Below are positions 1-35,580 of a stretch of 35,655 nucleotides of DNA, piece after piece. The notes beneath the pieces were generated by a model. That model saw only the letters and a program-made list of their open reading frames with translations. It searched no databases and was not told the DNA's origin. The first letter of the stretch is position 1. Every line of letters starts with the position of its first letter. The stretch lies in the IMG/VR virus record IMGVR_UViG_3300020057_000099, positions 1-35,655 of that record, one strand, 5' to 3'. Position numbers and translations under genes: made by a program. The DNA is from a virus.

Positions 1-25
1 TACCGCTACCGTTGATATATTCCAT
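1..25 (-). CDS. 5' end of a small gene cut by the left window edge (MEYINGSG...)
   Basis: The minus strand starts at ATG (23-25) preceded by AGAGGGAATTAACT, the same ribosome-binding context as the Gly-rich gene next to it. Eight codons are visible (MEYINGSG), matching the conserved start of the neighbouring Gly-rich paralogues. If the molecule is circular, the reading frame continues at the right edge (35655 to 35588) as a lysine run and then IAALDMNAISKVFEVPKY and a TAA, giving 30 residues. The joined product keeps the family N-terminus but lacks the Gly-X repeat, so it may be a degenerate or recombined paralogue. The joining is inference; the start, RBS and eight codons are seen directly. 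Confidence 0.5.
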
Positions 26-37
26 AGTTAATTCCCT

Positions 38-217
38 CTACTCACAAATGCCGTCACCTTCACCACCGCCGCTACCTTCACCGTCACCGCTACCGCCGCC
101 GTAACCGCTACCGCTACCATCACCGCTACCGCCGCCGTAACCGCTACCGCTACCGTAACCGCAACCGTAACCGGCACCGTAACCGTAACCATCACCGCTG
201 CCGTCAATGTAATCCAT
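38..217 (-). CDS. Small (Gly-X)n protein, paralogue 1 of the tandem family
   Basis: A 59-residue protein that is almost purely alternating glycine and Tyr/Ser/Asp/Glu/Gly, starting MDYIDGSGDGYGYG and ending DGICE before TAG. It has a good RBS (AGAGGG, 8 bases before the ATG). I recognise no named family. Low-complexity Gly-Tyr proteins of this kind are expected to be disordered and possibly self-associating, but that is inference. The single Cys, penultimate at the C-terminus, is shared by the two larger paralogues and could serve for disulfide or metal-mediated pairing. The stop codon lies just upstream of the RBS of the next gene to the left, so the set reads as one operon. Coding status is supported by the conserved start/RBS/stop modules, not by homology. 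Confidence 0.6.
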   Translation of the reverse strand: MDYIDGSGDGYGYGAGYGCGYGSGSGYGGGSGDGSGSGYGGGSGDGEGSGGGEGDGICE

Positions 218-229
218 AGTTAATTCCCT

Positions 230-445
230 CTATTGGCAAACGCCGCTACCGCTACCTTCACCGCTACCTTCACCGTCACCGTAACCGTAACCGTAACCGC
301 TTCCGCAACCGTAACCATCACCGTCACCGTAGCCGCTACCGTCACCGCCACCGCCACCGTCACCGCTACCGATGCCGTAACCGCTACCGGCACCGTAACC
401 GTAACCGTAACCGTAACCATCACCGCTACCGTCGATGTAATCCAT
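230..445 (-). CDS. Small (Gly-X)n protein, paralogue 2 of the tandem family
   Basis: A 71-residue protein starting MDYIDGSGDGYGYGYGYG and ending SGVCQ. Glycine occupies almost every second position; partners are Tyr, Ser, Asp, Glu and, once each or rarely, Ala, Cys, Ile. RBS AGAGGA lies before the ATG (443-445), and the upstream paralogue's TAG stop is just ahead of that RBS. Start and end modules match the neighbours, while the middle differs in length and order of hexamers, as expected for slippage-driven variation. Function unknown. The opposite strand is also open here and would encode a Val-Thr/Ala-Thr repeat, but it lacks a comparable RBS at each unit. Confidence 0.6.
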   Translation of the reverse strand: MDYIDGSGDGYGYGYGYGAGSGYGIGSGDGGGGGDGSGYGDGDGYGCGSGYGYGYGDGEGSGEGSGSGVCQ

Positions 446-457
446 TATTTAAATCCT

Positions 458-706
458 CTACTCGCAAATGCCGTAACCGTAACCGTAACCGTTGCCGCTA
501 CCGCTACCGTAACCGTAACCGCTACCGTAACCGTCACCGCTACCGCTTCCGTAACCGCCGCCTTCACCTTCACCGCTACCGTTGCCGATACCGTAACCGT
601 CACCGTAACCGAAACAGTCGCCGCCGCCACCATCACCGCCACCATCACCGCCACCGTAACCGCCGCCGTAACCGTAACCGTAACCGCTACCGTTGATGTA
701 ATACAT
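458..706 (-). CDS. Small (Gly-X)n protein, paralogue 3 of the tandem family
   Basis: An 82-residue protein starting MYYINGSGYGYGYGGGYGGG and ending YGICE. It includes a GGGDGGGDGGGGD-like stretch and one internal Cys near residue 31 in addition to the penultimate Cys. It is the first of the family after the DUF6948-like gene, whose TAA ends two bases before this ATG; no clear Shine-Dalgarno is seen here, so it probably depends on translational coupling. Paralogy with the two genes to the left is evident from the MxYI-N/D-GSG start and the G-I/V-C-E/Q end. Function unknown. Confidence 0.6.
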   Translation of the reverse strand: MYYINGSGYGYGYGGGYGGGDGGGDGGGGDCFGYGDGYGIGNGSGEGEGGGYGSGSGDGYGSGYGYGSGSGNGYGYGYGICE

Positions 707-708
707 AG

Positions 709-1032
709 TTAAATGGAAACAAAAGTGGACACAGATTTGTAAGCGTCATCTGTCATCTCAGCTATTTCTAGACCAGGAGGATTAACAATTAGAACGCTGT
801 TTAATCTCGCGCCGATTTGATGATCCGCCTTATCCTTTAAGCCATTAGCCGCGATGTCTGAAACCGAACCTGATTTGTCGCGAGTATAAACTCTCCACAG
901 TCTATAGGCATTTGTCAGAATAACAGACGTGCCGTTAATTTCTTGCAGCAGGCCTACATGCACTCCAGCCACGTTTGCTCTCACAATTACGGGCCTACCA
1001 ATTAAATTATTACCAATTTTATTTTCACTCAT
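709..1032 (-). CDS. DUF6948-like small phage protein
   Basis: A 107-residue protein starting MSENKIGNNLIGRPVIVRAN. The pattern IGRPVIVR...AGVHVGLLQEI...VILTNAYRLWR followed by GLKDKADHQIGARLNSVLI resembles the DUF6948 family of small phage proteins as I remember it; the role of that family is unknown. The start at 1032 is chosen because AAAGGAG sits a few bases upstream of this ATG; an in-frame ATG 24 bases further upstream would place that RBS inside the gene. It is followed directly by the Gly-rich paralogues, so they are probably cotranscribed. Family assignment is from memory of sequence pattern and moderately sure. Confidence 0.7.
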   Translation of the reverse strand: MSENKIGNNLIGRPVIVRANVAGVHVGLLQEINGTSVILTNAYRLWRVYTRDKSGSVSDIAANGLKDKADHQIGARLNSVLIVNPPGLEIAEMTDDAYKSVSTFVSI

Positions 1033-13019: not shown

Positions 13020-15293
13020 ATGGCATATATAAAACCGCCAACTTCACCATATTCATCTAGAGATGAAGACTCTAACAATAGTGACTCTAATAATAGTGAC
13101 TCTAATAATAGTGACTCTAATAATAGTGACCAGCTCCCTGATCCAAAGGCTAGCGCCGTACATACTTTTTCGAAGCTTGAGGATTTGTATCGTAAGGCAT
13201 CTGAAGTTGATGCAGCGGTTTTTTCTGAGATGAGAAGTAACGTACTTCTAGTTTCCGGTAACCATTACCCAAACAGGCTTTCCAAAATGTGGAATCGGCA
13301 GCGTGAGCAGGGGAACATAAACGAAGATCAAAGGGTTAGACTGACGAAAAACCATTTGGGGAAAATCGTGAGGCGTTTCTCAAACTCGGTTCAGAATTAT
13401 GCACCAGGTGTGAGCATGAAAGCAAAAACGGATTCAGATCTTCAAGATCAGAAAGCCGCAGAGCTTAACCAGGCGGTTTGGCAAGACGCCGTAACTCGCC
13501 ACGAGATTAAGGCTTTGCGAGGCGACTTGGTGGATGATTTCTTCACCATTGGCGAGACACATGTGTACATATATTGGGATCCCAACGAGGGGTTTCATAA
13601 GGGCTACGAAGGCAAGCTTGGTGACGATGGTCAGCCCGCTATGGATGAAATGGGACAGCAAATTCCAGATCATTCAAAACCGCAGATGAGTGGTGACTTT
13701 GTTTTCGAGCGCATCTTTGGTTTTAATGTAAAGCGTGACCCAGACTGTGAAGACATTAAAAAGTCGGATTTTATCATCGTAGATAAAATGGGTAACAAAC
13801 AAAAGTTAAGGAAGATATATAAAGGCAATGAAGAAAAAATTAAGTTTATCGAAGGCGGCGGAGGCAAAACGTTTAGAGTGTTTAATTATTCCGAAGGTGG
13901 CTTTAGAGAAGCGGACGATAATGAGGTTTTGCTTAGATGTTTTTACTTTCGTCCTTCTATTATTTATCCTAAGGGGTATTATTATCTTACAACATCGGCT
14001 GGAATTCTTGACTCTGGAGAGTTACCCTTTGGGATATTTCCAATTATCTCCGAATGCTGTGAGAGAGAGCAGTCTTCCGCCAGGGGTAGATCTATAATTA
14101 AGCAGTTCCGACCTTGCCAAGCTGAGATTAATCGGTCTGCTAGTAAAATGGCAGAGCATCAAATAACTTTGGGTGACGATAAGTTAATTACGCAATCCGG
14201 TAGCAAGTTATCTTCTGGTGCCTTGATTCCTGGTGTGCGTGGCGTATCTGTTACCGGAGCAATGCCGACCATTCTTCCTGGAAGATCCGGTAACCAGTAT
14301 ATGGATTATATGGTTTTCAATATCGAGGAAATCTACAGATTGGCCGATATGGATTACAACGAGGCAGAGAAGGGCGAGCAAGATCCTTATGCTTTACTTT
14401 ACAAGAGCGCATCACAGCGCAAGAAATACTCAAGGTATACCGAGAAGATCGAGAGCTTTTTAAAGCGATTTGCTAATTCATTCCTGTCTTTGGCGAAACA
14501 CTATTTGCCTGATGACATGATTATCGAGATAGTCGGTAAAAAAGAACAGGTAAATATTTCTGAGTTTAAGAATACCAGACCATTAGACTTTCAAGTGGTC
14601 ATCGAAGATTCAAACGAAGACATTGAGTCTAAGATTGGTCGTCAGATGATTTTCTCTCAGACTCTGCAATACGTTGGATCTAAGCTTGAGCCAGATGCCA
14701 TTGGTGAGGTTCTTAGGGCTATGCCATATCTTAACGACGACAAGGCTATGGCAGGACTTACTCTTAATACTGATATATCTGACAATATTATCTTGTCACT
14801 AGAGAGGGGTGACTTGCCTGAGCCCATTGAAGAGCAGAATCACCAGTATATTATTAAGAGATTAACCAATAGAATTATTTCACCTGACTTTAGATTTTTG
14901 GATCAGAAAATTAAAGAGAACTACGTTTTGGTACGTGAGGCACATCGTGAAATGCAAGCAGAGATTCAGAAGCAACTTTATCTAGAGAAACAAGGCTTAA
15001 TACCGATGACCGGTGCCCTTATTAAGGCTGATATTTATGTGTCAGACCCATTGAAGCCTTCTAGAACAACCCGCGCAACCATTCCGTATGATGCTCTTAA
15101 TTGGTTAGTGCAGAAACTTCAGCAGCAAGGGGTTACCATGGCCGCTGAAGCTAGCATGTCTCAAGAAGACCAACTGTCAATCAACAGATCAGCACAGTCT
15201 GGACAGCAACCACAGGACCCACAGCAACCACAGGACCCACAGCAACCACAGCAACAGGACCCACAGTTGAATCTTTTACCTGGTGGCATGTAG
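13020..15293 (+). CDS. Portal protein
   Basis: A 757-residue protein of the podovirus portal type, forming the ring through which DNA enters and leaves the head. After a repetitive N-terminus come VLLVSGNHYPNR, NHLGKIVRRFSNSVQNYAPG and FFTIGETHVYIYWD, patterns typical of P22-like/large podovirus portals, then ECCEREQSSARGRSIIKQF and REAHREMQAEIQKQ in the crown region. The N-terminus contains four SDSNN-type repeats and the C-terminus a Gln-Pro-Asp-rich repeat, both encoded by tandem DNA repeats. RBS AAGGA lies before the ATG. Position after terminase and before scaffold supports the call. Confidence 0.88.
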   Translation: MAYIKPPTSPYSSRDEDSNNSDSNNSDSNNSDSNNSDQLPDPKASAVHTFSKLEDLYRKASEVDAAVFSEMRSNVLLVSGNHYPNRLSKMWNRQREQGNINEDQRVRLTKNHLGKIVRRFSNSVQNYAPGVSMKAKTDSDLQDQKAAELNQAVWQDAVTRHEIKALRGDLVDDFFTIGETHVYIYWDPNEGFHKGYEGKLGDDGQPAMDEMGQQIPDHSKPQMSGDFVFERIFGFNVKRDPDCEDIKKSDFIIVDKMGNKQKLRKIYKGNEEKIKFIEGGGGKTFRVFNYSEGGFREADDNEVLLRCFYFRPSIIYPKGYYYLTTSAGILDSGELPFGIFPIISECCEREQSSARGRSIIKQFRPCQAEINRSASKMAEHQITLGDDKLITQSGSKLSSGALIPGVRGVSVTGAMPTILPGRSGNQYMDYMVFNIEEIYRLADMDYNEAEKGEQDPYALLYKSASQRKKYSRYTEKIESFLKRFANSFLSLAKHYLPDDMIIEIVGKKEQVNISEFKNTRPLDFQVVIEDSNEDIESKIGRQMIFSQTLQYVGSKLEPDAIGEVLRAMPYLNDDKAMAGLTLNTDISDNIILSLERGDLPEPIEEQNHQYIIKRLTNRIISPDFRFLDQKIKENYVLVREAHREMQAEIQKQLYLEKQGLIPMTGALIKADIYVSDPLKPSRTTRATIPYDALNWLVQKLQQQGVTMAAEASMSQEDQLSINRSAQSGQQPQDPQQPQDPQQPQQQDPQLNLLPGGM
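13068..13130 (+). repeat. Four 15-bp in-frame repeats near the portal start
   Basis: GACTCTAAYAATAGT occurs four times head to tail (13068-13127), encoding DSNNS. The unit is in frame, so copy change would keep the portal readable. Confidence 0.9.
15204..15266 (+). repeat. 18-bp in-frame repeats near the portal end
   Basis: CAGCAACCACAGGACCCA occurs twice exactly and once with a shorter variant, encoding QQPQDP. It forms a disordered C-terminal tail. Confidence 0.85.
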
Positions 15294-16629: not shown

Positions 16630-17874
16630 ATGGCTACGCTACAGAATTTTAGCGCAATGCTAAACCAGTACATCCCCAATAGTCTTCTACGCGAAGCACT
16701 TATCAAACGGGATTACTTCCTATCAAATTGCAAAAAAGACAATAACTGGCTCGGCGGAACATTGATTGTTCCTTTTGAAGGCGCACGTCCTTCAACTGTT
16801 AAAATTGGTGGCTTGCCATCAGTTGCTAACATCCGTCAGGGTGTTTATGTCCGTGGCGAGATCACCTCTCAGCCAGAAGCTTGGGGTTCACTCAAGTTCT
16901 TTGAAAAAGATTTAATTCAACACGGCAAGGTTAATGAGCAATCTCTTGTTAAACTGCTACCTGGTGAAATTGATTCTTTGATGGGTTACTTCAAGAACTC
17001 CCTATCACTTCAATTCACAAACGGCGCTTCTTTCATGGCGTTAAACGTAGACGGTACATCCGGCGGCGTTGCTGGTGTTTTGCGTATTGAACGCGCTGAA
17101 CTAGGCGCTAACGTTGTTATTAAAGACAACAACAGCAATGCTCTCCAAGGTTGGATTGGTGCTATTAACGTCAATACAAACCTTATCACTTTGTATTCTG
17201 ATGCTGCATTAACAACTGTATTAGACATTTCTGCCTTTACCGTTGCTCAAGCTGCTAAGATCTTTTTTGATGGATCTGAGTCAGCATCCAACCAGTTTAC
17301 TTCTTTGAAGGCTTCTTTGTTGTCTGCTGCAAACGGTGGTTCTACAAACTTGTATGGTCAGGCAAAAACAGCATACCCATACTTACAGTCGATTAACGTA
17401 AACGGCGCTTCATGGACAAGCACAAACATCTTGGAGAAATCCCTTGATGCGATGATTGCAGTTCGTAACAAAGGCAAAGGCATGGCTGATAAGATTGTGT
17501 GCTCGTACACAGTGTTCGGTTATATCTTGGCTCAGTTGCAAGCTGAAAAGGGCGCATTCCGCCAAGCTAGCGACATGAAGGCTAACCAATACGGTTGGAC
17601 CGAAGTTAACATTATTGGACCCAAGGGTCAGGCAACTTTCGTAGCGATCCAAGAGATGGACGATACTGAAATGTTCATTTTGGACATGGATGCAATCACA
17701 ATCTACTCTAACGGGTTTATTCGTAAGCGCGTTGGTCCAGACGGTTTAATGTTCTACACAATTCGTCAAACGGATGGCTATCAATACATTGTTGATATCT
17801 GTTTCTATGGCGATTTAGTTTTGGAACGTCCTAGCCGATGCGGAATCGTCTACGGGCTTCCATTCCCTGCATAG
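16630..17874 (+). CDS. Major capsid protein (HK97-fold type)
   Basis: A 414-residue protein, the first gene after the scaffold. The N-terminal part includes WLGGTLIVPFEGARPSTVKI and IRQGVYVRGEITSQPEAWGS, typical of P22-like/podovirus coat proteins; the middle has an A-domain-like SLDAMIAVRNKGKGMADKIV and the end has VLERPSRCGIVYGLPFP. Codon use is rich and regular, consistent with high expression. It is bracketed by a strong hairpin upstream and a terminator-like hairpin downstream, which may insulate and stabilise its mRNA. Confidence 0.9.
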   Translation: MATLQNFSAMLNQYIPNSLLREALIKRDYFLSNCKKDNNWLGGTLIVPFEGARPSTVKIGGLPSVANIRQGVYVRGEITSQPEAWGSLKFFEKDLIQHGKVNEQSLVKLLPGEIDSLMGYFKNSLSLQFTNGASFMALNVDGTSGGVAGVLRIERAELGANVVIKDNNSNALQGWIGAINVNTNLITLYSDAALTTVLDISAFTVAQAAKIFFDGSESASNQFTSLKASLLSAANGGSTNLYGQAKTAYPYLQSINVNGASWTSTNILEKSLDAMIAVRNKGKGMADKIVCSYTVFGYILAQLQAEKGAFRQASDMKANQYGWTEVNIIGPKGQATFVAIQEMDDTEMFILDMDAITIYSNGFIRKRVGPDGLMFYTIRQTDGYQYIVDICFYGDLVLERPSRCGIVYGLPFPA

Positions 17875-18509: not shown

Positions 18510-20087
18510 ATGATTTTTCTCTTTATATTCTTGGGATTATTCCTTGCTCCTAATGCACATTCACAATTTTTCCCCATATCGAGCGGCAGCGTCCCGTTTG
18601 GTAGCTCTCAACGCTCTCTTGCGCAAAACGCTACTAAATTTACTTGGGACAATACTAATGCACAATTACGCTTAGGTGCCGGAACCGCGTTGCTTCCTTC
18701 ATATAGTTTCGTTGGGGTAGGGAATAATGCAGTTGGAATGTATAGATTGGAAAGTGGTTCTCTTGGTTTCTCAACAAGTGGAATAGAAAGAATGAGTATA
18801 GCCTCAGACGGTACTTTGGTTTTGGCTACCGCATTAAATACTAGCAACGGTGGCACTGGGATTACAACGTACACAACTGGAGATATTCTTTATTCATCAG
18901 CTACAAACGTACTTTCCAAGCGTGCTATTGGCAGTAATGGTCAAGTCCTAACAATTTCTGGTGGGGTTCCTATATGGGCAGCGGTATCCGGCACTGGCGA
19001 TGTGGTCGGTCCAGCCAGCTCAGTTAATAGTGAGATTGCTCTTTTTGATGGAACAAATGGAAAACTTTTAAAATCTTTGACGGGAACAGGTGTTGTTAAA
19101 TCAACTAGTGGAGTGGCGTCAGTTTCTGCCGTTTCTCTAACTGCTGATATTTCTGGCGTGCTACCCGTCGCCAATGGTGGAACTAATTTGTCTTCTGGAA
19201 CTAGCGGTGGAATTTTAGGTTACACAGCTGCCGGTACGATAGCATCTAGCAGCGCTCTAACTGCTAACGCTTTAGTTTTGGGTGGTGGAGCAGGAGTGTT
19301 ACCATCTCCAATGGGCTCCCTTGGAACAACAAGCACGGTTCTGCATGGCAATGCTGCTGGAGCGCCTACCTTTAGCGCTGTCTCTCTAACTGCTGATGTC
19401 AGTGGAAATTTACCTGTAGCTAATTTAAACTCAGGCACTTCAGCAAGTGCCGCTACTTTCTGGAGAGGTGACGGTACATGGGCAGCGGTATCCGGCACTG
19501 GTGACGTGGTCGGCCCAGCTAGCTCAGTTAATAGTGAGATTGCTCTTTTTGATGGAGCAACTGGAAAGCTTTTAAAATCTTTAACAGGCACAGGTGTCGT
19601 GAAATCGACTAGTGGAGTGGCGTCAGTCTCTGCTGTCTCTCTAACTGCCGATGTCAGTGGAAATTTACCTGTAGCTAATCTGAACTCAGGAACTTCAGCA
19701 AGTGCCTCCACTTTCTGGAGGGGTGACGGTACTTGGGTAGCGGCAGGATCTGGATTACAAGTATCTGGCTCAACTGGAACACCAAAGTCTATTTCTGCGG
19801 CTACATGTATAAATTCAACTGCCGTTCCAACGCTTGACGTAAAAGTTGTTGTGTTTATTACCGGCAACGCTGGAGCAATAGATTGCACGGCAGCCGTTAC
19901 TCAGATTTTGGCGGGCACATCTGTAGGTCAGGAGATTACGGTTATAGGAACCAGTGATACGAACACGTTAACTTTAGATAACGGTGATGGTTTAGTTCTT
20001 AACGGATCAATAATTATCGGTAACAACGATATTCTGCGAGCTATCTGGAATGGTTCTGCATGGGTCGAAATTACGAGGAACAACTAA
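18510..20087 (+). CDS. Fibre-like repeat protein with Sec signal peptide (1 of 5)
   Basis: A 525-residue protein. The first 18 residues, [18 protein letters not shown], form a hydrophobic signal peptide with a plausible cleavage after AHS. The rest is Ser/Thr/Gly-rich and beta-repeat like: [14 protein letters not shown]-type motifs near the start, NGGTG motifs, and two near-identical blocks ([11 protein letters not shown]...LTADVSG and [15 protein letters not shown]...WRGDGTW). These are hallmarks of trimeric phage tail fibres. A signal peptide is unusual for a virion fibre. Eight consecutive G (18500-18507) form the RBS. Mature cysteines are few (two near residues 430-455). Confidence 0.8.
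18980..19742 (+). repeat. Long diverged direct repeats inside the fibre gene
   Basis: About 180 bp at 18980-19155 recurs at 19482-19665 with scattered changes, mainly synonymous, and about 105 bp at 19379-19488 recurs at 19636-19742. They encode the repeated fibre shaft blocks and could support recombination that changes fibre length. Confidence 0.85.
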
Positions 20088-20088
20088 T

Positions 20089-21909
20089 ATGAAAACACTT
20101 ATATTGTTAACATCTTTTTTTACACTTACTTGCTTTGGCATTGGCTCTACAACGACAACAAAGCAAATCAAGAATATCAATGGCTCTTTTACGTCAGATA
20201 ACACTATCTATAATAGTGGCTTTGAGCTTGGTTCTGGTGGCTGGACTGCAAGCGGAGGCACATTTACCACTACGACTACAGCAGCAAACGTAGGTCGCGG
20301 TTCAGTAGCAGGTTCATTTGACGGGTCAGCTGCGGCTCAGACTTTAACCAGTTCCGCTATTACAATTCCAGCAGGCCTCTATGGTAAGAACGCCGTTATT
20401 AGCTGTAATGTTCAGGGCGCATCTGCAACTCTTACTGTTGCGGCATGGGATGGTTCTGCAAATCTATCTGTAGCCACACCGATTACATCTCAAGCGACGT
20501 ACGCAAGAACTTCGGTAAACTTTATTGCTCCAACTTCAGGCACTGTAGCTGTGCAATTTAAAACAGTGGCCGTTAATGAGCCGATTATTTATATTGATGA
20601 TTGCTACATAGGCGCAGCCGACACTTTTAATATCAGCCAGGTGAGTCAGGCTTCTTTCGTTGGTTCTGCGAAAACAATAGGCGCAGCGAACTGCGTTTGG
20701 ACTGGCACATCTGCAGCAATAGCTGACATGCCCACAGATTCAGATTGTTCTGCGGCTACTTTAACGGGTAGCTTTTTAGCGCCCACTGTTGCGAAAACAC
20801 CAGGCTTTAAAGTAACGAATTTACCTCCAGGCGTTTACTACGTTTATTCTCAAGGTAACTATGGTGGCACTGCGGATTGTAACTTTAGAATATACGACGG
20901 TACAAATTTCACAGGCACAAGTAACTCAAACAATGACAGAACTGGCGGACTTGCCGGCACGTTTACTTACACAACGACACAAGCAAGTTTAGATTTTACA
21001 ATACAGCAGCGAGGAACTAGCTGCACTATTTACAACGATTTGACCTCCCAAAACTACGAAATTGGGATGATGAGATTTCCCTCAACTTCAGAGATTGCCA
21101 TTAGGCCTGAATCAATGCTGCAGTTTGGTTTTCTGAAATACGCAGGAACTGCAAACTGCACATGGATTTTTTCAAGCGCGTCCTTTGCAAACTTAGCCTT
21201 AGATGCCGATTGCCCAACTCCAACTGTAAGTGGATCAGGTGTAGCACCAGGAACAAAAATTCCAGCGATGGTCGTTAATAATGTTCCCGCTGGTAAATAC
21301 CTAGTCATGGTTCAGGGAGCTAACATAATGGGGGGCGGTGGAGATAGCTGCTCGATGCAGATACACGATGGCACTACTGGAAAAGGTTACACGGCAGTTT
21401 ATAATACAACAAACCAGGCTTTAGCGCCGATATCTTTGATGGGAGTTTTTGAATATAGTACGGCTCAAAGCACTTTAACTTTTAACGTTCAGGGCAGAAA
21501 AGATTCGGGGGCCGGAACGTGTGCTCTTGCTAATGACGCTGTAAGGAACCTTGAGATTTCTATCATTCCAATTTCTCAAAGTATCAACGTGCCTCTTTTA
21601 GTTGGCTCAGTGACTAGCGGTAACGCTGGAGCTTTAAGAATCGAAGCCGCTGAATTGAATTGTGATGCTTCCTCTGCGATTACATCTCAAACAAGCTCTG
21701 TGTTTGTAGCTACCATTGGAAATAGATCTACGACTAGTTGTGCAATTACATTTACAGCGGGAACCTGGTTGTCGGCTCCTTACTGCACTTTTTCTACAAA
21801 AGCCGCTGCTAACAGTTCAGGTTTAACTGTAACCTCAACGACTGCTGGTACTATTTTTGGACCATCGGCTGACTATGACGGATACCTAACATGCATAGGG
21901 GTTAGGTGA
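20089..21909 (+). CDS. Exported adhesin-like protein with carbohydrate-binding-like and Cys-rich domains (2 of 5)
   Basis: A 606-residue protein. The start MKTLILLTSFFTLTCFGIGS is a signal peptide; the ATG at 20089 follows GAGGAA. Residues about 35-180 (YNSGFELGSGGWTASGG ... PIIYIDDCYIG) resemble the jelly-roll carbohydrate-binding modules with N-x-G-F-E-x-G-x-x-x-W. Two related domains follow, each with C-x-W and D-C motifs and a jelly-roll-like body (ANCVWTGTSAAIADMPTDSD; ANCTWIFSSASFANLALDAD). By my count fourteen cysteines follow the signal, an even number suited to disulfides. Likely binds host or neighbouring-cell surface glycans. Whether it is part of the virion is unknown. Confidence 0.7.
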   Translation: MKTLILLTSFFTLTCFGIGSTTTTKQIKNINGSFTSDNTIYNSGFELGSGGWTASGGTFTTTTTAANVGRGSVAGSFDGSAAAQTLTSSAITIPAGLYGKNAVISCNVQGASATLTVAAWDGSANLSVATPITSQATYARTSVNFIAPTSGTVAVQFKTVAVNEPIIYIDDCYIGAADTFNISQVSQASFVGSAKTIGAANCVWTGTSAAIADMPTDSDCSAATLTGSFLAPTVAKTPGFKVTNLPPGVYYVYSQGNYGGTADCNFRIYDGTNFTGTSNSNNDRTGGLAGTFTYTTTQASLDFTIQQRGTSCTIYNDLTSQNYEIGMMRFPSTSEIAIRPESMLQFGFLKYAGTANCTWIFSSASFANLALDADCPTPTVSGSGVAPGTKIPAMVVNNVPAGKYLVMVQGANIMGGGGDSCSMQIHDGTTGKGYTAVYNTTNQALAPISLMGVFEYSTAQSTLTFNVQGRKDSGAGTCALANDAVRNLEISIIPISQSINVPLLVGSVTSGNAGALRIEAAELNCDASSAITSQTSSVFVATIGNRSTTSCAITFTAGTWLSAPYCTFSTKAAANSSGLTVTSTTAGTIFGPSADYDGYLTCIGVR

Positions 21910-22127
21910 TGAGAATTACAGAAAACTCCGCTGTATCCTTTTCCCTAGTTGGCGCGATAATTGGTGGCGTCTTTTGGTTTACCTCTCTGTATATGAAAGT
22001 AGAGGCTAACGCGTCTGATATGACTACTACTAAGATAAAACAAGAACGTAATGAAACGTTATTGCTAGAAATTCGTGACCGAGTAATGCGCATAGAATCT
22101 AAGATTGTCAGGCATAATGAGCGGTAA
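21909..22127 (+). CDS. Small membrane protein, holin-like
   Basis: A 72-residue protein with a single transmembrane segment (SFSLVGAIIGGVFWFTSLYM) followed by a helical, coiled-coil-like stretch (TTTKIKQERNETLLLEIRDR). The start overlaps the previous TGA, and its end overlaps the endolysin start, forming a classical lysis pair. A holin or a membrane-anchored lysis helper is likely. Topology would place the helical part in the cytoplasm or periplasm depending on orientation. Confidence 0.6.
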   Translation: MRITENSAVSFSLVGAIIGGVFWFTSLYMKVEANASDMTTTKIKQERNETLLLEIRDRVMRIESKIVRHNER

Positions 22128-22698
22128 GATAGGAATTATCGTGGGACACGAGGAGAACGCTCCTGGAGTAGTGGCGACTTTCCCCATAAACCTATCTGAA
22201 TACCACTTCAACAAAACTCTCTCTCTGGAAATATACAGAGCTGTGCAAGATGCTGGGTATGAATGCAGAGTTTTCTTGAGGGATAGGACTACACGCGATG
22301 GCGTCACCAAGGCTGTGAATTCGTGGATTAGTGATGATGACGGTGTTTCTGTAGAATTACATTTAAACGCGTTTGACGGCAAGACTCGTGGAACAGAAAC
22401 GCTCTATAGCGTCCATTCAGACGATAGCAAGATGCTGGCGCTCTTAGTCCAATCTCATGTGTGTGAGGCGCTAGGGCGTACTGGAAAGTCTAATCGTGGC
22501 TTGAAAATCTTGGAGTTCGGTGACAGAGGATCTTCTAATCTGAGAAAAATGGATCATCCGGCGTGCCTTGTGGAGCCAGTGTTTGCAGATAACAAAGATG
22601 ATGCTGCTCTACTCAGTTCGCAGCGTTTGCTGTATGCTGAGAGTATTGCTGAGTCCTGCATAGAGTTTTTGAAAAAATATAAGGAGACAGTTAAATGA
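22117..22698 (+). CDS. Endolysin: zinc-dependent N-acetylmuramoyl-L-alanine amidase (Amidase_3)
   Basis: A 193-residue amidase that cleaves the bond between MurNAc and the peptide stem. Zinc ligands and catalytic residues are visible: H11 in IVGHEENAPG, E28 in SEYHFNKTL, H82 in ELHLNAFDG and the catalytic Glu E153 in CLVEPVFADN. There is no signal peptide and no separate cell-wall binding domain, so it should need the holin to reach the periplasm. The ATG at 22117 is used; an upstream TTG is less likely. Its TGA overlaps the next ATG. Placement inside the fibre block, rather than with the lysis-like genes at the right end, is notable. Confidence 0.9.
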   Translation: MSGKIGIIVGHEENAPGVVATFPINLSEYHFNKTLSLEIYRAVQDAGYECRVFLRDRTTRDGVTKAVNSWISDDDGVSVELHLNAFDGKTRGTETLYSVHSDDSKMLALLVQSHVCEALGRTGKSNRGLKILEFGDRGSSNLRKMDHPACLVEPVFADNKDDAALLSSQRLLYAESIAESCIEFLKKYKETVK

Positions 22699-23039
22699 TT
22701 AAAATTTTATTGCTACTAAGCTTTGTGACATTCGGTGCGCAAGCGCAGAGTGTAATGCTACAATGCACTAACTTCACGATGACGGAAAATGCTACTGTAA
22801 ACTCGACCGCGTCGACATTAATTTTGTCTGCGAATCGATTTCGTAGATGTTTGACGATACAGAACAAGAGCACGACCGTCACTATGTATATTACTTTCGC
22901 CGCTGGTGGTGGCGCTACCGAGGGCATCGGTATTCCGGCTGGGGGAAACTGGGACCAAAACATTGCTAATGCGAATGCGATTTACGCACGTTCCGCTAGT
23001 GGTAGTTCGCAGACAATTGCAGTTATGTCGGGAGAATAA
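22695..23039 (+). CDS. Small exported protein (3 of 5)
   Basis: A 114-residue protein with a clear signal peptide (MIKILLLLSFVTFGAQA, cleavage expected before QSVML). The mature part is short and beta-rich with two cysteines (QCTNF, RRCLT) that could pair, and a Gly-rich stretch (FAAGGGATEGIGIPAGGNW). The RBS AAGGAG is well spaced. It starts within the endolysin stop (ATGA). The LTIQNKS...GIPAGG pattern resembles the small domain often seen at phage fibre or spike tips, but I cannot name it. Confidence 0.75.
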   Translation: MIKILLLLSFVTFGAQAQSVMLQCTNFTMTENATVNSTASTLILSANRFRRCLTIQNKSTTVTMYITFAAGGGATEGIGIPAGGNWDQNIANANAIYARSASGSSQTIAVMSGE

Positions 23040-23040
23040 A

Positions 23041-24111
23041 ATGTTTACAAAACTAATCACAACTCTGTTACTACTCACTTGTGCGACATCACATGCATAC
23101 CTCTCTCCCATGTTCGGTTATCCACTCCCAATCGGTGGGACAATTACGGGTGGAACTACTGGATCAGTTCTCTTCGTAAACCCCACTGGGATACTCGCGC
23201 AAGACAACGATAACTATTTTTGGGATAACACCAACAAACGATTAGGCATTGGCACGCCGACACCAGCCAGCAAACTTGACGTCGTCGGAGTTATAAACGG
23301 AACTTCATCTATCATTAGTGGTGACACCATTTACTCTCCAAATGGACTCTCTAATTCCAGCACTAGCAGCAATGCTTATGTTCAAACCATAACGACTGGC
23401 ACTTTAATTACTAGAGACGCAGCTGATGCAAATCCTGCTGCGATCGTGCAACAAGTTCATGCAAGCAGCACCGGAGATGTTTTACAACTTAAGAACAATG
23501 CCTCTACCCTGATGACCGTTAAGCAAGGCGGTAGCGTTGGTATTGGCATTACGGCTCCAAGCTCTCTTGTCCACGTCCGGCAAACAGTAGACAGTGTAGT
23601 AACGGCTACGCCTATAGGCCTAAACGTTGATTCAGTCGGAGCGGCTGGTGAGTTAACAGCAGCTAGCAGCGTACAAACATTTGCACAAATTGCGCCGATA
23701 ATTAACCAAACTAGCACGGCAGGTTACACAGCGTTAAAAATTAACCCAACAGAAACCAGCACAGGCAGTGGTGTAAAACTACTTGCTGATTTTCAAGTCG
23801 GTGCAGCTTCAAAATTTTCTGTAAACAATTTCGGCAAAATCGCAATGGACGCGACAAACACAGCAGGCGGCACAACAGGCGCTCAAACTATTAACAAGCC
23901 TTCGGGAACTGTTAACTTTGCAGCGGCAGCATCGTCGCTCGTTGTTACAAATTCTTTAGTCACAACAAGTAGCATCGTTCATGCAATGGTTAGAACCAAT
24001 GACTCGACGGCAATAGTTAAAAACGTTGTACCTGCTGCCGGCTCATTTACGATAACATTAAACGCATCTGCAACAGCTGAAACATCAGTTGGCTTTGTAG
24101 TTTTTAACTAA
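23041..24111 (+). CDS. Fibre-like protein with Sec signal peptide (4 of 5)
   Basis: A 356-residue protein. MFTKLITTLLLLTCATSHA is a signal peptide with cleavage after SHA. The mature part has the motif DNYFWDNTNKRLGIGTPTPA, a repeat-type segment common in phage and bacterial fibre/adhesin proteins, then Ser/Thr/Gly-rich beta-helix-like sequence to the end. The ATG at 23041 is preceded by GGGAGAA; a longer frame from 22906 lies inside the previous gene and is rejected. Confidence 0.8.
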   Translation: MFTKLITTLLLLTCATSHAYLSPMFGYPLPIGGTITGGTTGSVLFVNPTGILAQDNDNYFWDNTNKRLGIGTPTPASKLDVVGVINGTSSIISGDTIYSPNGLSNSSTSSNAYVQTITTGTLITRDAADANPAAIVQQVHASSTGDVLQLKNNASTLMTVKQGGSVGIGITAPSSLVHVRQTVDSVVTATPIGLNVDSVGAAGELTAASSVQTFAQIAPIINQTSTAGYTALKINPTETSTGSGVKLLADFQVGAASKFSVNNFGKIAMDATNTAGGTTGAQTINKPSGTVNFAAAASSLVVTNSLVTTSSIVHAMVRTNDSTAIVKNVVPAAGSFTITLNASATAETSVGFVVFN

Positions 24112-24120
24112 GGAGATTTC

Positions 24121-24438
24121 ATGCCAGATATTAAAATCGTAGATTCAAGTGTAGTAGAAGCCGTAGTACAAGCGCCCGTAATTTATTCCTCAGTCGTTGT
24201 GGGTGAGATAGAAGCTGATTTGAACCTTAAATCAGAAAAGATTGTAACGTTTTATCAAGCGTGTGTGAAAGTTAGTTTCTTGCTCAAACAAAACGATAAG
24301 CCAGATATCACAGTAATTAGATCAGAGTGTATCGGCTTACCAAGCGAGAACAAAGTATTGTCTATAAATGAAGCTTTCGTGCAGGAACTTGTTGCGCAAA
24401 TGCTGGTAGAAGTAAAAGCAGAGTACGGAATAGTTTAA
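24121..24438 (+). CDS. Hypothetical small protein in fibre block
   Basis: A 105-residue acidic protein without a signal peptide (MPDIKIVDSSVVEAVVQAPV...) with a good AAGGAG RBS. It could be a chaperone or attachment protein for the neighbouring fibres, judged only from position and lack of export signal. Confidence 0.65.
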   Translation: MPDIKIVDSSVVEAVVQAPVIYSSVVVGEIEADLNLKSEKIVTFYQACVKVSFLLKQNDKPDITVIRSECIGLPSENKVLSINEAFVQELVAQMLVEVKAEYGIV

Positions 24439-24464
24439 ACTTTAATTAAAAGGAGAAAAAATTT

Positions 24465-24938
24465 ATGAAAGAACTTAATGTAAGCGCAATGCAATTTATG
24501 AGGGCAGCCACAATGGAAGCCACAACGTCGTCAACAACCCCAGTTGGCACAGTGACAACGCTGACCAGCACTACGGCTACGATCGCAAACTTAAACGCGA
24601 CCACGTCCGTTGTTGGGACTACTACTGTCACTGGATTAAAACTTGCGTTCCAAACAGGCACATTAGACGTTGTAGCAACAAGTGCTATGTACGGGATTCA
24701 AGTTGATCCTACTGGCGCAGCCAAAACAGTTACTCTTCCTGCTGCCTCTGCGCACGCTGGTCGTGTTTATGTTATCTCCGACAAAGCAACTGGCAACAAC
24801 TTAACCATCACGCCTAACGGTTCAGATACGGTTGATGGATCTGCAACGCTTGTACTTAATGCTGCAAAAGAATGCGCAACCATTATGTCCGATGGCGTAT
24901 CCAACTGGATTCTTATTGTTAACGTAGGTATCTCGTAA
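24465..24938 (+). CDS. Fibre-like beta-rich protein without signal peptide
   Basis: A 157-residue protein, Thr-rich near the start (ATTSSTTPVGTVTTLTSTTA) and then with TKVTLPAAS-type and SDKATGNNLTITPNGSDTVD motifs typical of the C-terminal domains of phage tail fibres. RBS AAAAGGAG. Unlike its neighbours it has no signal peptide. It may be a fibre tip or a fibre-associated protein. Confidence 0.7.
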   Translation: MKELNVSAMQFMRAATMEATTSSTTPVGTVTTLTSTTATIANLNATTSVVGTTTVTGLKLAFQTGTLDVVATSAMYGIQVDPTGAAKTVTLPAASAHAGRVYVISDKATGNNLTITPNGSDTVDGSATLVLNAAKECATIMSDGVSNWILIVNVGIS

Positions 24939-24949
24939 TTAGTTAATTA

Positions 24950-24969
24950 AGAGGGGCAAGTGTCCCTCT
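24950..24969 (+). terminator. Short hairpin between fibre genes
   Basis: AGAGGG (24950-24955) / CCCTCT (24964-24969) with an 8-base loop, followed by AGTTTAATTT. A weak terminator or mRNA end signal. Confidence 0.5.
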
Positions 24970-24992
24970 AGTTTAATTTGGGGGAGGGATTA

Positions 24993-25814
24993 ATGAAGAG
25001 ATTATTTCTTCTGTTATTATCTTGCAATGTTTTCGCCGTGACTACGCCAAATATGCTGCTTTCTAGCCCTGTCGTTGGTGACACGAATTATCCGACTCAA
25101 ATAACAACATCTCTTAGCCTTATCGATGCTCACGATCATACGACTGGCAAAGGGGTTCAGGTAGGTTCTGGCGGCTTAGCGGCTGGATCTGTAGTTGCTA
25201 GCACCATTGGAACAAGTGCAGTTACCACTGTAAAAATACAAGATACAGCAGTTACCACTGCGAAGATAACAGACTTGAACGTGACCACAGCGAAGATTAA
25301 TGCTTTGGCGGTTACTACAGCTAAGATTAATGATCTGGCGGTTACTACTGGGAAGATAGCTGATCTGGCGGTTACGCAGGGCAAGAGGGCGGCATTGGGG
25401 CAGCAGTTAAGTTCTGGTAGTGGAACCTTTAGCACGACATCATCATCTTTTGTAGATGTAACAAATTTAACCGTGACGATTACAACAACCGGAAGACCTG
25501 TTTTCCTTAGTTTAGGTGGTGCTGCAACTGGTACTATACCAGGTCCTTCCGCTGGATGTAGCCACGGCAGTTCAGATACGGCAATATGCAAATTTGCCTA
25601 CCTTAGAGATGCATCACCAAGTGTGGGAGAAAACACTGTTACTGCTAGAGCCCTTGGTGCAACAGCAGTCAAAAACTTTATCCCATGTTCAAGTTTTTCC
25701 CATATAGACGTAGTTGCTGCTGGAACATACACATATAAATTTCAAGCGGCAGCTGTAGGTTCTGGTTCCGCTGCTGAAGTTTCGGAATGCAAACTAACCG
25801 CCTATGAGCTTTAA
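24993..25814 (+). CDS. Fibre-like protein with Sec signal peptide and decapeptide repeats (5 of 5)
   Basis: A 273-residue protein. MKRLFLLLLSCNVFA is a signal peptide with cleavage after VFA. Then LIDAHDHTTGKGVQV, a motif very common near the start of phage tail fibres and collars, and about six 10-residue repeats of the type AVTTAKINDL (25205-25380), forming a trimeric shaft. The C-terminal domain has four cysteines (AGCSHG, AICKF, IPCSS, SECKL). The start at 24993 is favoured over an upstream GTG-like start because GGGGGAGGG precedes it. Confidence 0.82.
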   Translation: MKRLFLLLLSCNVFAVTTPNMLLSSPVVGDTNYPTQITTSLSLIDAHDHTTGKGVQVGSGGLAAGSVVASTIGTSAVTTVKIQDTAVTTAKITDLNVTTAKINALAVTTAKINDLAVTTGKIADLAVTQGKRAALGQQLSSGSGTFSTTSSSFVDVTNLTVTITTTGRPVFLSLGGAATGTIPGPSAGCSHGSSDTAICKFAYLRDASPSVGENTVTARALGATAVKNFIPCSSFSHIDVVAAGTYTYKFQAAAVGSGSAAEVSECKLTAYEL

Positions 25815-25817
25815 CCC

Positions 25818-28121
25818 ATGCCAACACTGAACTTTAATGATTTTAATGGTGGAGTTACAGAGAGTCCAATTGACTGTAATCCCACGCAATATGAGCAGGC
25901 AAATAACTTTCTAATCACACAAGATAAGAAACTGGAGCCACGCTATGGATCATCTAGAGATAGTACGTCAGCATCATTGGTCCCAGGATCTGTTACTCGC
26001 ATTGGCGCTCTTATTTCTTTTCGCGATATTATTTTTAAACAGAGAGTGAATGATCTGCATTATGTGCAATCAGGTGTAATGAGCACACTTGTCGGGCCAA
26101 CGGGTAACGCTGTTTATCCGTCTGCAACAGTTTCTAACATCCCAAGCTGGGGATTATGGAACATGCATTTTATGACAGTCAATGATGACCCCTTAAATCG
26201 ACCACAAAAGGTGTTTCTAAACACAAGTGGTAATCCTGTTTTACTTAATCTTGGATTACCTATTCTTGCGTCTGCTCCCAATGTTGTATTGACAGCTGGT
26301 GGATCATCTTTAAGTTATCTGTATAAGTTCTTTTATAAGCACACTTATGTTCGTGAGGGTAACGTTACCTTTGAAGAGACAGGGCAAACGTCTGCAACAT
26401 TGACAGTTGCAAGTGCTGGTGCCGCAGCAATCGCGGGCGGTGCTCCGGCTAGCATTACTGTTATTCCAGTTTTGGCAAACGGGTTATATGACAACTTTGC
26501 CACAACTGAAATAACAGTACAGATTTACAGGACTGCAAACGCTGGTACTGAATATTATAAAGTGGGAGAGGTTACTAATGGTACCACTACTTTCTCAGAC
26601 ACAACGGCAGACGCAGCCTTGTTATTAAACGATCTTATTTACACCGCTGGTGGGATTGCTGAGAATACGCAGCCACCACAATGCAAGAGTATTCATTGCA
26701 CAGAGCAGTTTGCATATTTTGTTAATATTTTAGAGGGTGGAGAGACACTATCTAATGAAATAAGACAATCCAAGGCTAACAGGCTTTATGCTGCTCCTGC
26801 TGACTTCTCTGAGTCAGTGGATGATGAACTTGTAGCAGTAAGCTCTGTTAGGTCTATTCCTATAGTATTTGGTAAGAACTCTGTTTATAGAATAGACGGT
26901 TTCTTTGACGACTTCGGTCGTGGGGGTATGAATGCGGTTAAGATATCTGATACGACAGGTTGTAATTCTCCTTTATCTATTGTGCAAACCCTGGATGCTT
27001 TGTTCTTTGCTGGCACAGATGGTTTTTATACGACCGATGGCTACAAGGTAATTAAGATATCCAACCAGGCTGATAAAATTTATCAGCAAGCTACAGTTAC
27101 CTCTACGCAAAGAAATAGAATATACGGAATATTTCAAAAGAGTCAGAGCAGAATTTGGTGGGCACTTAATCCAAGCAATGGGGTAGATAACGATACTCTT
27201 TTTATATTCGATCTAAGATTTGGTATTTCTTCGGAGGTTCCTTACACAAACGCCAATGGGGTGAGGCTTGATTCTTCGTATGCAGCTCTTTCCACACAAT
27301 GGACGGCAAGCTCCATGACTTATCTGAACGGATACATTTATCGCGCTCAAAGTAATGGCTACACAATGAGGCACGATCCAATTGCTTTTACAGATGAGTA
27401 TATAAATGCAGACTCTTTGTGGGTACAGCAGCCAATTCAATATGATTTCAAGAGCGCCATTTTCTCATGTGCTAATCCTAGTGTTAAGAAATTTGCCTCA
27501 AAGGTATCTATCGTTGCTGAAAACGTCGCCAATCTTTCTTGCTTAATTCAGTCAGATAACGACAAGAAACAAAGCTACTCTAATTGTGATGTTATTTGGG
27601 TGAAGTCCCACGTCCAATGGGGGGATAGCTTCTGGGGTGATCCCATTCTATGGACTGGTGACACCGAAATTATAAAGCAGATTAGGTACTTGCCACAGTC
27701 TGGTGGATTGCGTTTTGTTTATAAACAAATAAGGTTTAAAAATGCCTACACAAACATTTCATCTAGCGATTTAAGATCTACATGCGCAGTTGCAAGCGGA
27801 ACAACGGTAAAGACTTTGATTATTCCGTCACCTAAAACATTTCCACCAGATTGCACTGATTACTATATCAGCGTTGAGAATACGGTTGGATCTGGAATTT
27901 ACAGTAATGATTTGCTTATTTTAAGTAATGTCGATTCAAAAACGATTACCGTTAACGACCCTTCTCAGGTTCTTACAGTAGGGGTCGATAAACGATGGGT
28001 CATCAAGGGGTTTGCTAAAGGGGACGTTCTTAAGATTTTATCTTGGAGCCTGTACTTTGAAAACCTAAGCAGCGGCTCTTTGGTACCGTACCTTGGTGAG
28101 CTTGGCGGTAATGCTGTATGA
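25818..28121 (+). CDS. Tail nozzle / hub protein (T7 gp12-like)
   Basis: A 767-residue protein starting MPTLNFNDFNGGVTESPIDC, the usual N-terminus of podovirus nozzle or tail-tube B proteins. It has beta-propeller-like repeats (VVFGKNSVYRIDG, ALFFAGTDGFYTTDGYKVIK, RNRIYGIFQKSQSRIWWALN). Long and mostly beta, without signal peptide or membrane segment. It probably forms the tail nozzle at the tip of the short tail. No RBS is seen; it starts three bases after the previous stop and may be coupled. Confidence 0.75.
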   Translation: MPTLNFNDFNGGVTESPIDCNPTQYEQANNFLITQDKKLEPRYGSSRDSTSASLVPGSVTRIGALISFRDIIFKQRVNDLHYVQSGVMSTLVGPTGNAVYPSATVSNIPSWGLWNMHFMTVNDDPLNRPQKVFLNTSGNPVLLNLGLPILASAPNVVLTAGGSSLSYLYKFFYKHTYVREGNVTFEETGQTSATLTVASAGAAAIAGGAPASITVIPVLANGLYDNFATTEITVQIYRTANAGTEYYKVGEVTNGTTTFSDTTADAALLLNDLIYTAGGIAENTQPPQCKSIHCTEQFAYFVNILEGGETLSNEIRQSKANRLYAAPADFSESVDDELVAVSSVRSIPIVFGKNSVYRIDGFFDDFGRGGMNAVKISDTTGCNSPLSIVQTLDALFFAGTDGFYTTDGYKVIKISNQADKIYQQATVTSTQRNRIYGIFQKSQSRIWWALNPSNGVDNDTLFIFDLRFGISSEVPYTNANGVRLDSSYAALSTQWTASSMTYLNGYIYRAQSNGYTMRHDPIAFTDEYINADSLWVQQPIQYDFKSAIFSCANPSVKKFASKVSIVAENVANLSCLIQSDNDKKQSYSNCDVIWVKSHVQWGDSFWGDPILWTGDTEIIKQIRYLPQSGGLRFVYKQIRFKNAYTNISSSDLRSTCAVASGTTVKTLIIPSPKTFPPDCTDYYISVENTVGSGIYSNDLLILSNVDSKTITVNDPSQVLTVGVDKRWVIKGFAKGDVLKILSWSLYFENLSSGSLVPYLGELGGNAV

Positions 28122-34986: not shown

Positions 34987-35184
34987 ATGGATCTAATCGT
35001 AGGACTGTTGCCAGGTGACGTTTCTCATAAAGTGCTAGTAGGTGTTCTTTTGCTGAACCTTGCACTTTCAGTAGCCCAAAAGGCGTTGGTTATTTTAGGA
35101 AAATCAGAAGTGCCATTCCTATCAAAAGCAGCGGTTTTTGTGCAAAAGTTCGTGGACGCACTTTCCGCAAACGTAAAGCATTAA
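34987..35184 (+). CDS. Small membrane protein, holin candidate
   Basis: A 65-residue protein with one transmembrane segment (VLVGVLLLNLALSVAQKALV) and an amphipathic C-terminus. RBS GGGGGGG, 9 bases before the ATG. It starts a three-gene set ending in a lipoprotein, as in lysis cassettes. Holin is a reasonable but unproven call; the genome also has a holin-like gene beside the endolysin. Confidence 0.5.
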   Translation: MDLIVGLLPGDVSHKVLVGVLLLNLALSVAQKALVILGKSEVPFLSKAAVFVQKFVDALSANVKH

Positions 35185-35384
35185 TGGCGAGTCTGCTTGC
35201 AGCCTTGGCAACTATAGGAACTATTCTTAAAGAAGCCAGGGCCATTATTGATTGGATGAAAGACGAACATAATAAGAGGCTAGTGCTTGAGATTAACTCT
35301 TCATGGCAGGCTTTGAAAGCTGCCAAAACTCACGAGGAAAGACAAAATGCGGCTTCTGCTATTGCTAGTGTCATCTCTAGTTAG
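35184..35384 (+). CDS. Small helical protein, possible inner-membrane spanin
   Basis: A 66-residue protein with a short hydrophobic start (MASLLAALATIGTIL) and a charged helical rest (EARAIIDWMKDEHNKRLVLE). It overlaps the previous stop by one base and its 3' end overlaps the lipoprotein gene by 38 bases. The arrangement recalls Rz/Rz1 spanins, but the hydrophobic part is short for a membrane anchor. Confidence 0.5.
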   Translation: MASLLAALATIGTILKEARAIIDWMKDEHNKRLVLEINSSWQALKAAKTHEERQNAASAIASVISS

Positions 35385-35580
35385 CTGTTCCGGTGGACCT
35401 AATGTTGTAGTACACATAGCGAACCATGCGGAGCAGGGTTTTGATTATGCCAACAGGGATAATACCATTCGTGGTTTTAAACCTTACAGTGACACTTCCA
35501 CTGATAAACTGCTGTGCCTGTCAGAGGGAGACGCAAGGGCTCTACTCGATTGGTCAAAAGCCCAGTGCCGAAAACCCTAA
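35347..35580 (+). CDS. Lipoprotein, outer-membrane spanin candidate
   Basis: A 77-residue protein with a classical lipoprotein signal: MRLLLLLVSSLVSC, lipobox LVSC with the lipidated Cys at 14. The mature part has two more cysteines (LLCLSE, AQCRKP). It starts inside the preceding gene in a different frame after a GAGGAAAG RBS, like Rz1-type outer-membrane spanins. This indicates a Gram-negative host. Its length is typical for o-spanins though Pro content is low. Confidence 0.65.
   Translation: MRLLLLLVSSLVSCSGGPNVVVHIANHAEQGFDYANRDNTIRGFKPYSDTSTDKLLCLSEGDARALLDWSKAQCRKP

Follow-up and report, generated by a model that had tools for sequence, protein, structure and literature searches.

Proteins of the mosaic adhesive trimeric (MAT) family are exported, surface-displayed mosaic fibers that Bdellovibrio uses for prey recognition and entry, and the study describing them (PMC10769870) presents them as phage-tail-fiber-like, its sections considered here giving no account of how the signal peptide arose. 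Disulfides occur in their TNF-like tips, a PelB export leader was used to produce the tip of Bd2734, and predation is delayed when Bd2734 is deleted. A conserved, beta-rich N-terminal domain of about 130 residues comes right after the signal peptide of MATs, and an S74 chaperone/protease end is present in 13 of the 21 MATs, the other 8 having none. Here we analyze a viral DNA stretch of 35,655 bases (record IMGVR_UViG_3300020057_000099; hereafter the window), in which five fiber-like proteins, designated by the first positions of their genes as 18510, 20089, 22695, 23041 and 24993 (Table 1), carry predicted N-terminal Sec-type signal peptides. Like the MATs Bd2734, Bd2133 and Bd3182, the window proteins combine a signal peptide, a fiber build and mosaic, swappable C-terminal tips; unlike them, the five are encoded by phage late-operon genes and are shorter (114–606 residues, as against about 627–1151 for the MATs).

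The explanation that we favor, with a probability of about 0.7, is that these proteins are MAT-like, disulfide-bonded and glycan-binding fibers, which the host would export through its Sec system in late infection and which would act outside the cytoplasm. Their export is well supported: signal-like N-termini, differing in sequence, are retained by the five proteins of the window, by the orthologues of two of them in a siphophage and by two proteins of phi1422, a cultured phage of Bdellovibrio. An initial annotation of the same DNA had already pointed to the five N-termini; the likely Bdellovibrio host, the homology to MATs, the exchange between unrelated phages and the recurrence in uncultured phages were not part of it.

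Signal peptides of the five proteins

Signal peptides were called with an n/h/c rule of our own, not with SignalP; an earlier form of the rule had been checked on seven known Escherichia coli signal peptides. The rule calls for an uncharged core of 9 residues with a mean hydropathy of at least 2.1, a small-X-small site and a start without net negative charge. All five proteins pass it, and 24121 and 24465, neighbors in the same block, both fail it, as the initial annotation had held in each case. The weakest signal is that of 20089, the cleavage site of which is ambiguous; in the orthologue from another phage, the site is of textbook form (PANA↓Q, arrows marking the predicted cleavage). The hydrophobic cores, read from the sequence, comprise ~10–13 residues and are not long enough to span a membrane in the ordinary way. 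The starts are also fixed as described earlier, each being preceded by a good ribosome site: ggggggggaa-ATG for 18510, gaggaacaactaat-ATG for 20089, aaggagacagttaa-ATG for 22695, gggagaataaa-ATG for 23041 and gggggagggatta-ATG for 24993. Longer frames from 20050 (for 20089), 22906 (for 23041) and 24978 (for 24993) have no such site and were rejected.

The background pass rate of the rule is 2.4% (5 of 211 genes encoding at least 100 residues) in four cultured control phages and 4.8% (102 of 2118) in IMG/VR loci chosen for their fiber genes, giving a probability of 9e-7 and 3e-5, respectively, for at least five passes among nine genes; the earlier argument that five cases in one block are not due to chance thus stands. 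To call them five independent cases was slightly too strong, since 18510 and 23041, both of which pass, have a common stretch in their mature N-terminal regions (37% over 78 residues, E 4e-4). The even cysteine numbers that had been remarked on apply to every one of the five proteins in mature form (2 in 18510, 14 in 20089, 2 in 22695, 0 in 23041 and 4 in 24993). In Pfam and PHROG, no virion-attachment domain was found at any of the five N-termini, and no lytic domain in any of the five proteins.

Relationship to MAT adhesins and phage fibers

The strongest link to the MATs is provided by 20089, for which the tip of Bd2734 from Bdellovibrio bacteriovorus (PDB 8OKW, E 7.8e-17) is the one strongly matched PDB family. 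Two tandem copies of this TNF-like domain are found at about residues 188–313 (188–308 in the pairwise comparison) and 347–470 (pairwise E 3e-19 and 1e-13), followed by another tip, a tandem arrangement by which 20089 differs from the MATs. Three of its cysteines align with cysteines of Bd2734, and all 14 are conserved in the siphophage orthologue (65% identity). Since the TNF-like MAT tips are disulfide-bonded, export of such a protein would have a clear use. In 23041, the resemblance lies in the 'GIGTxxP' motif of Bd2133 and Bd3182; a profile built from 23041 and its orthologue matches both (PDB 8OND, E 1.7e-9, and PDB 8OJN, E 6.1e-6). No S74 end was found in the window, and none is required for MATs. 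Because the sequence match among the tips and shafts compared appears confined to 20089 and 23041, the five are not classed as MATs; we propose, by analogy, that they act in the manner of MATs outside the cytoplasm. The resemblance of at least two of them to the prey-gripping fibers of the predator suggests that the phage outfits or disturbs the surface of its host, beyond constructing a tail for itself.

Two of the remaining proteins point to phage fibers. The shaft of 24993 matches a PHROG tail fiber family (E 1.6e-16), and its C-terminal domain of ~150 residues is homologous to gp75 of phi1422 (34% over 159 residues). The C-terminal 109 residues of 18510 show a 40% match to a non-exported tail fiber of podovirus ct8d5349, and a similar tip occurs on a Bradyrhizobium phage fiber devoid of a signal peptide, so that a tip of this type does not by itself imply export. 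The same gene contains a near-exact internal module duplication (18990–19745), a possible recombination substrate. No PDB or phage relative was found for 22695.

Exchange with a siphophage

A second uncultured phage, represented by two loci (L082 and L088) of one IMG/VR contig (3300020186_000084) and called a siphophage from its tape-measure-like and tail genes, has a full-length orthologue of 20089 and one of 23041 (L088:6748–7833), the latter directly followed by an orthologue of 24121. It has little else in common with the window: a gene in the decoration-protein position after the capsid gene is weakly alike in both (36% over 120 residues), and a small gene similar to the holin-like gene abutting 20089 follows the L082 orthologue. 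At the DNA level, long matches are found only at 21073–21937 (97%) and 23535–24428 (94.5%), that is, in the distal parts of 20089 and 23041 together with the small partner 24121. Apart from these, the DNA matches only in a 54-base motif within 23041 and at the low-complexity end of the window. The N-terminal parts of 20089 and 23041 are diverged or replaced relative to the siphophage, and both orthologues nevertheless begin with a signal peptide that passes the rule with a different sequence (MIILFSLLVTLFLCTPANA↓Q and MIKNIFYIILFLSTSWANS↓Q); the 24121 orthologue is signal-free, as in the window. No other relative of 24121 was found, and this co-inherited protein is a candidate cytoplasmic partner or chaperone of 23041.

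Because the long DNA match is confined to these genes, they evidently move between differing virion types, and their exchange between phages with different virions suggests that these phages have a host in common and that the proteins do their work regardless of tail type.

Cultured Bdellovibrio phages and the likely host

The initial annotation had suggested looking for the same feature in related phages, and besides the two siphophage orthologues, two proteins of phi1422 (JQ177062), which infects B. bacteriovorus, bear signal-like N-termini. Both gp68 (614 residues) and gp75 have textbook signal peptides that pass the rule; gp68 is encoded directly behind the annotated tail fiber gp67, which has no signal peptide, and is followed by a membrane-protein gene. 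As in the window, the signal peptides are thus found on fiber-like proteins encoded next to where the tail genes end, and the gp75 C-terminus is homologous to that of 24993. Unlike the window phage, phi1422 is a myovirus of another lineage, and gp68 and gp75 are annotated only as hypothetical proteins. By sequence, gp68 is not detectably a MAT; its comparison with the N-terminal domain of 20089 is suggestive only (hhalign probability 3%). On the relatives of phi1422 infecting Aeromonas, Pectobacterium, Vibrio and Iodobacter, none of the tail and fiber genes checked at their annotated starts has a signal peptide, and automatic gene calls in these relatives yield five passes of the rule, mostly by lysis-type and other small proteins. 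The phiPLPE fiber gp63, annotated as confirmed in virions by mass spectrometry, is also free of a signal peptide. In this group, therefore, the trait of signal peptides on fibers tracks the Bdellovibrio host, in a comparison of one phage with four. A second cultured Bdellovibrio phage, phi1402 (L167), has signal-like N-termini on gp35 and gp39 (19842–20327 and 21591–22475) in its lysis region.

PHROG recognizes a primase, a portal, a large terminase and internal virion/tail proteins in the window, which is a short-tailed-phage-like genome. On the homologies described above, Bdellovibrio or a bacterium closely related to it is the most likely host. No close relative of the capsid protein was found among cultured phages, contig profile scans with the 20089/L082 alignment and with a Bd2734 fragment gave no relative among the genome contigs, and a plasmid search gave no relatives.

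Proposed mode of action and alternative explanations

In the predicted course of events, the late operon encodes a set of fiber-like, largely beta-structured and glycan-binding proteins, which would be exported by the host Sec system. After export, the signal peptide would be cleaved off and the periplasm would be the site of disulfide formation; the processed, presumably trimeric proteins would then work beyond the cytoplasm as the MAT adhesins of the host do, distinct from virion fibers assembled in the cytoplasm. We infer cleavage, trimerization, disulfides, glycan binding and the host itself from the comparisons given; the final role is a guess, for which three possibilities may be ranked. 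Foremost, the proteins might be displayed on, or bind to, the infected predator or the surrounding prey ghost, whereby they could alter prey handling or mask phage receptors, which would prevent superinfection and keep progeny from being lost to debris. Behind this come a soluble decoy set free by lysis and a late attachment to virions. Bdellophages replicate within a host that itself resides in prey, and for this reason display, prey-ghost binding, receptor masking and late virion attachment are all possible. The position of the genes between structural and lysis genes implies late expression and weakly favors a role around lysis or release.

Several points weigh against this explanation. The signal-peptide calls derive from our own sequence rule, and the five genes sit within a structural operon, like virion fiber genes. 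No match to MAT tips or shafts was obtained for 18510, 22695 or 24993 taken with gp75, and the link of 24993 is with phi1422 instead of a MAT. Models of 20089 and 23041 made with AlphaFold are poor (mean pLDDT 44 and 38) and too weak to use; we also give little weight to the Foldseek search with the 20089 model, which lists C1q/TNF heads, carbohydrate-binding modules and 8OKW. As for the host, the assignment draws on homology alone, and the portal, capsid and tail genes have zero viral relatives in the collections searched.

The genes lie between capsid and tail genes and adjoin lysis genes, their tips are exchanged between phages like receptor-binding tips, and the cysteine pairs supply a reason for export; all this would suit proteins that are exported, folded in the periplasm with disulfides, released at lysis and then attached to the tails as add-on fibers. 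We regard such a route as rather improbable, because the same exported modules occur in podophage-like and siphophage genomes and recur in a myophage, with no common tail parts, and because L051 (an uncultured phage locus described below) and ct8d5349 possess, beside the exported proteins, a separate signal-less fiber with a T7-like virion-attachment domain. Still less probable is that the hydrophobic N-termini remain uncleaved and serve in the cytoplasm as virion anchors merely resembling signal peptides. Fibers do carry N-terminal anchors, and the cleavage is here predicted from sequence; small-X-small sites, however, come after the ~10–13-residue cores, and their +1 position is frequently Gln (PANA↓Q, AQA↓Q, MATA↓Q and AHS↓Q), the orthologues retain the signal pattern but not its sequence, and the pattern is absent from comparable tail and fiber genes of related phages. 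That the pattern arose by chance or as a compositional artefact is hardly credible: whole-protein shuffles of these hydrophobic, small-residue-rich proteins do pass the rule at 3.8%, but five cases stand in one block and are kept in orthologues (P ≤ 3e-5), and the orthologue and phi1422 results exclude it.

A narrower form of the favored explanation is that phages acquired MAT genes or tips of the host, with the main effect, as in lysogenic conversion, on the prey range and prey entry of the predator. The homology to Bd2734 and Bd2133 and the delayed predation without Bd2734 (PMC10769870) would agree with it, and a bdellophage would profit from successful prey invasion. We consider it unlikely, though a little less so than add-on fibers, as the genes lie in the late structural/lysis region, where expression is expected after entry, and no integrase was found among the window genes scanned.

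Comparison with other phages and wider implications

Among the IMG/VR loci fetched for fiber similarity, about a dozen have at least two nearby signal-peptide genes of at least 150 residues. In L051, an internal virion protein is followed by a signal-less fiber with a recognized tail-protein N-terminus, four signal-peptide proteins and the endolysin, and L137 is arranged similarly; a signal-peptide protein of the latter (L137:9713–12730) combines a tail-spike PHROG match with a marginal S74 chaperone match, an S74-type MAT build. Like the window, L051, L137, L078, L007 and L009 have 2–4 adjacent genes for fiber-like proteins with signal peptides after the tail genes (before the endolysin in L051 and L137); beyond fiber repeats, however, they show no strong sequence relation to it. 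In ct8d5349, a signal-less fiber with a weak T7 attachment domain precedes a 906-residue signal-peptide protein annotated with a caprin-2 domain. Putative exported fiber-like proteins thus recur in phages beside separate virion fibers, the Bdellovibrio phages being one instance.

The five proteins share fiber repeats and a position near tail genes with ordinary virion tail fibers, such as those of the T7 gp17 type and phiPLPE gp63. Those have no signal and may carry a virion-attachment domain, whereas the five have a predicted signal and no such domain, and hence appear not to meet the description of virion fibers assembled in the cytoplasm. Nor do they resemble Sec-dependent lysis proteins (SAR endolysin, spanin), as they have no lytic domain and the endolysin of the window has no signal. 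PblB of streptococcal phages, a tail-related phage protein that is an adhesin outside the cell (PMC4508584), is alike by description; its hosts are Gram-positive and its phages temperate. A putative signal peptide has been described for pneumococcal PblB, and the release of PblB in S. mitis as following phage-induced permeabilization (PMC4508584). In the literature covered, with subscription papers outside the scope, we found no report of exported fibers in bdellophages.

A broader proposition, which we hold only tentatively, is that Bdellovibrio phages systematically encode sets of exported MAT-like adhesins, swapped between unrelated phages, that remodel the infected predator's surface or that of the bdelloplast, and that exported phage fibers may be the evolutionary source of the MATs. 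Were this so, secreted fibers would allow the phage of a predator to manipulate predator–prey recognition or to shield receptors, fiber proteins would be used outside the virion, and there would be a concrete route by which phage fibers become bacterial adhesins. As clusters of signal-peptide fibers recur in uncultured phages, a class of exported phage proteins may have been overlooked, and with the cultured phi1422 the link between phage fibers and predator adhesins becomes directly accessible.

Additional features of the window

Table 1. Predicted features of the fiber block and its surroundings; export, cleavage sites (arrows) and functions are sequence-based assignments.
Positions	Strand	Feature	Residues	Remarks
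16630–17874	+	candidate major capsid protein		PHROG 'major head protein', weak (E 0.002), plus position; upstream of fiber block
18510–20087	+	exported fiber-like protein	525	signal peptide 1–18 (AHS↓Q); internal duplicated fiber module; C-terminal tip, 2 Cys
20089–21909	+	exported MAT-like adhesin	606	signal peptide ~1–20; N-terminal beta domain; C-terminal Cys-rich tip; 14 mature Cys
21909–22127	+	holin-like small protein		one hydrophobic segment; from sequence and position; overlaps stop of 20089
22117–22698	+	endolysin, N-acetylmuramoyl-L-alanine amidase (Amidase_3)		Pfam E 2.7e-18; PHROG endolysin E 4.5e-25; no signal peptide
22695–23039	+	small exported protein	114	signal peptide 1–17 (AQA↓Q); 2 Cys in mature part; weak PHROG matches to families without assigned function
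23041–24111	+	exported MAT-like fiber	356	signal peptide 1–19 (SHA↓Y); 'GIGTxxPxxxLHV' head/shaft motif; C-terminal beta tip
24121–24438	+	small non-exported partner	105	co-inherited with 23041; 90% identical protein right behind 23041 orthologue in L088
24465–24938	+	small fiber-tip-like protein	157	no signal peptide; C-terminal match to fiber ORFs in L053, L162 and L165
24993–25814	+	exported fiber protein	273	signal peptide 1–15 (VFA↓V); AVTTAKI-repeat shaft; C-terminal domain, 4 Cys
25818–28121	+	tail/virion structural protein		PHROG internal virion/tail appendage, E 1e-8 to 2e-5; downstream of fiber block

At the left end of the window (1–712, minus strand), tandem small genes encode Gly/Tyr/Ser-rich proteins starting with M(D/Y)YIDGSG; a siphophage gene near the end of L082 (15496–16059, MEYIDGSGGGEGGGSGYG...) resembles them, a further feature common to the two phages. 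Tandem repeats (SNNSDSNNSDSNNSD) are present at the portal N-terminus (13020–13130). At the right end (34987–35580), three small genes, two with hydrophobic stretches and one for a short lipoprotein (MRLLLLLVSSLVSCSGG), are spanin-like and form a second lysis-type cluster distant from the endolysin gene at 22117.

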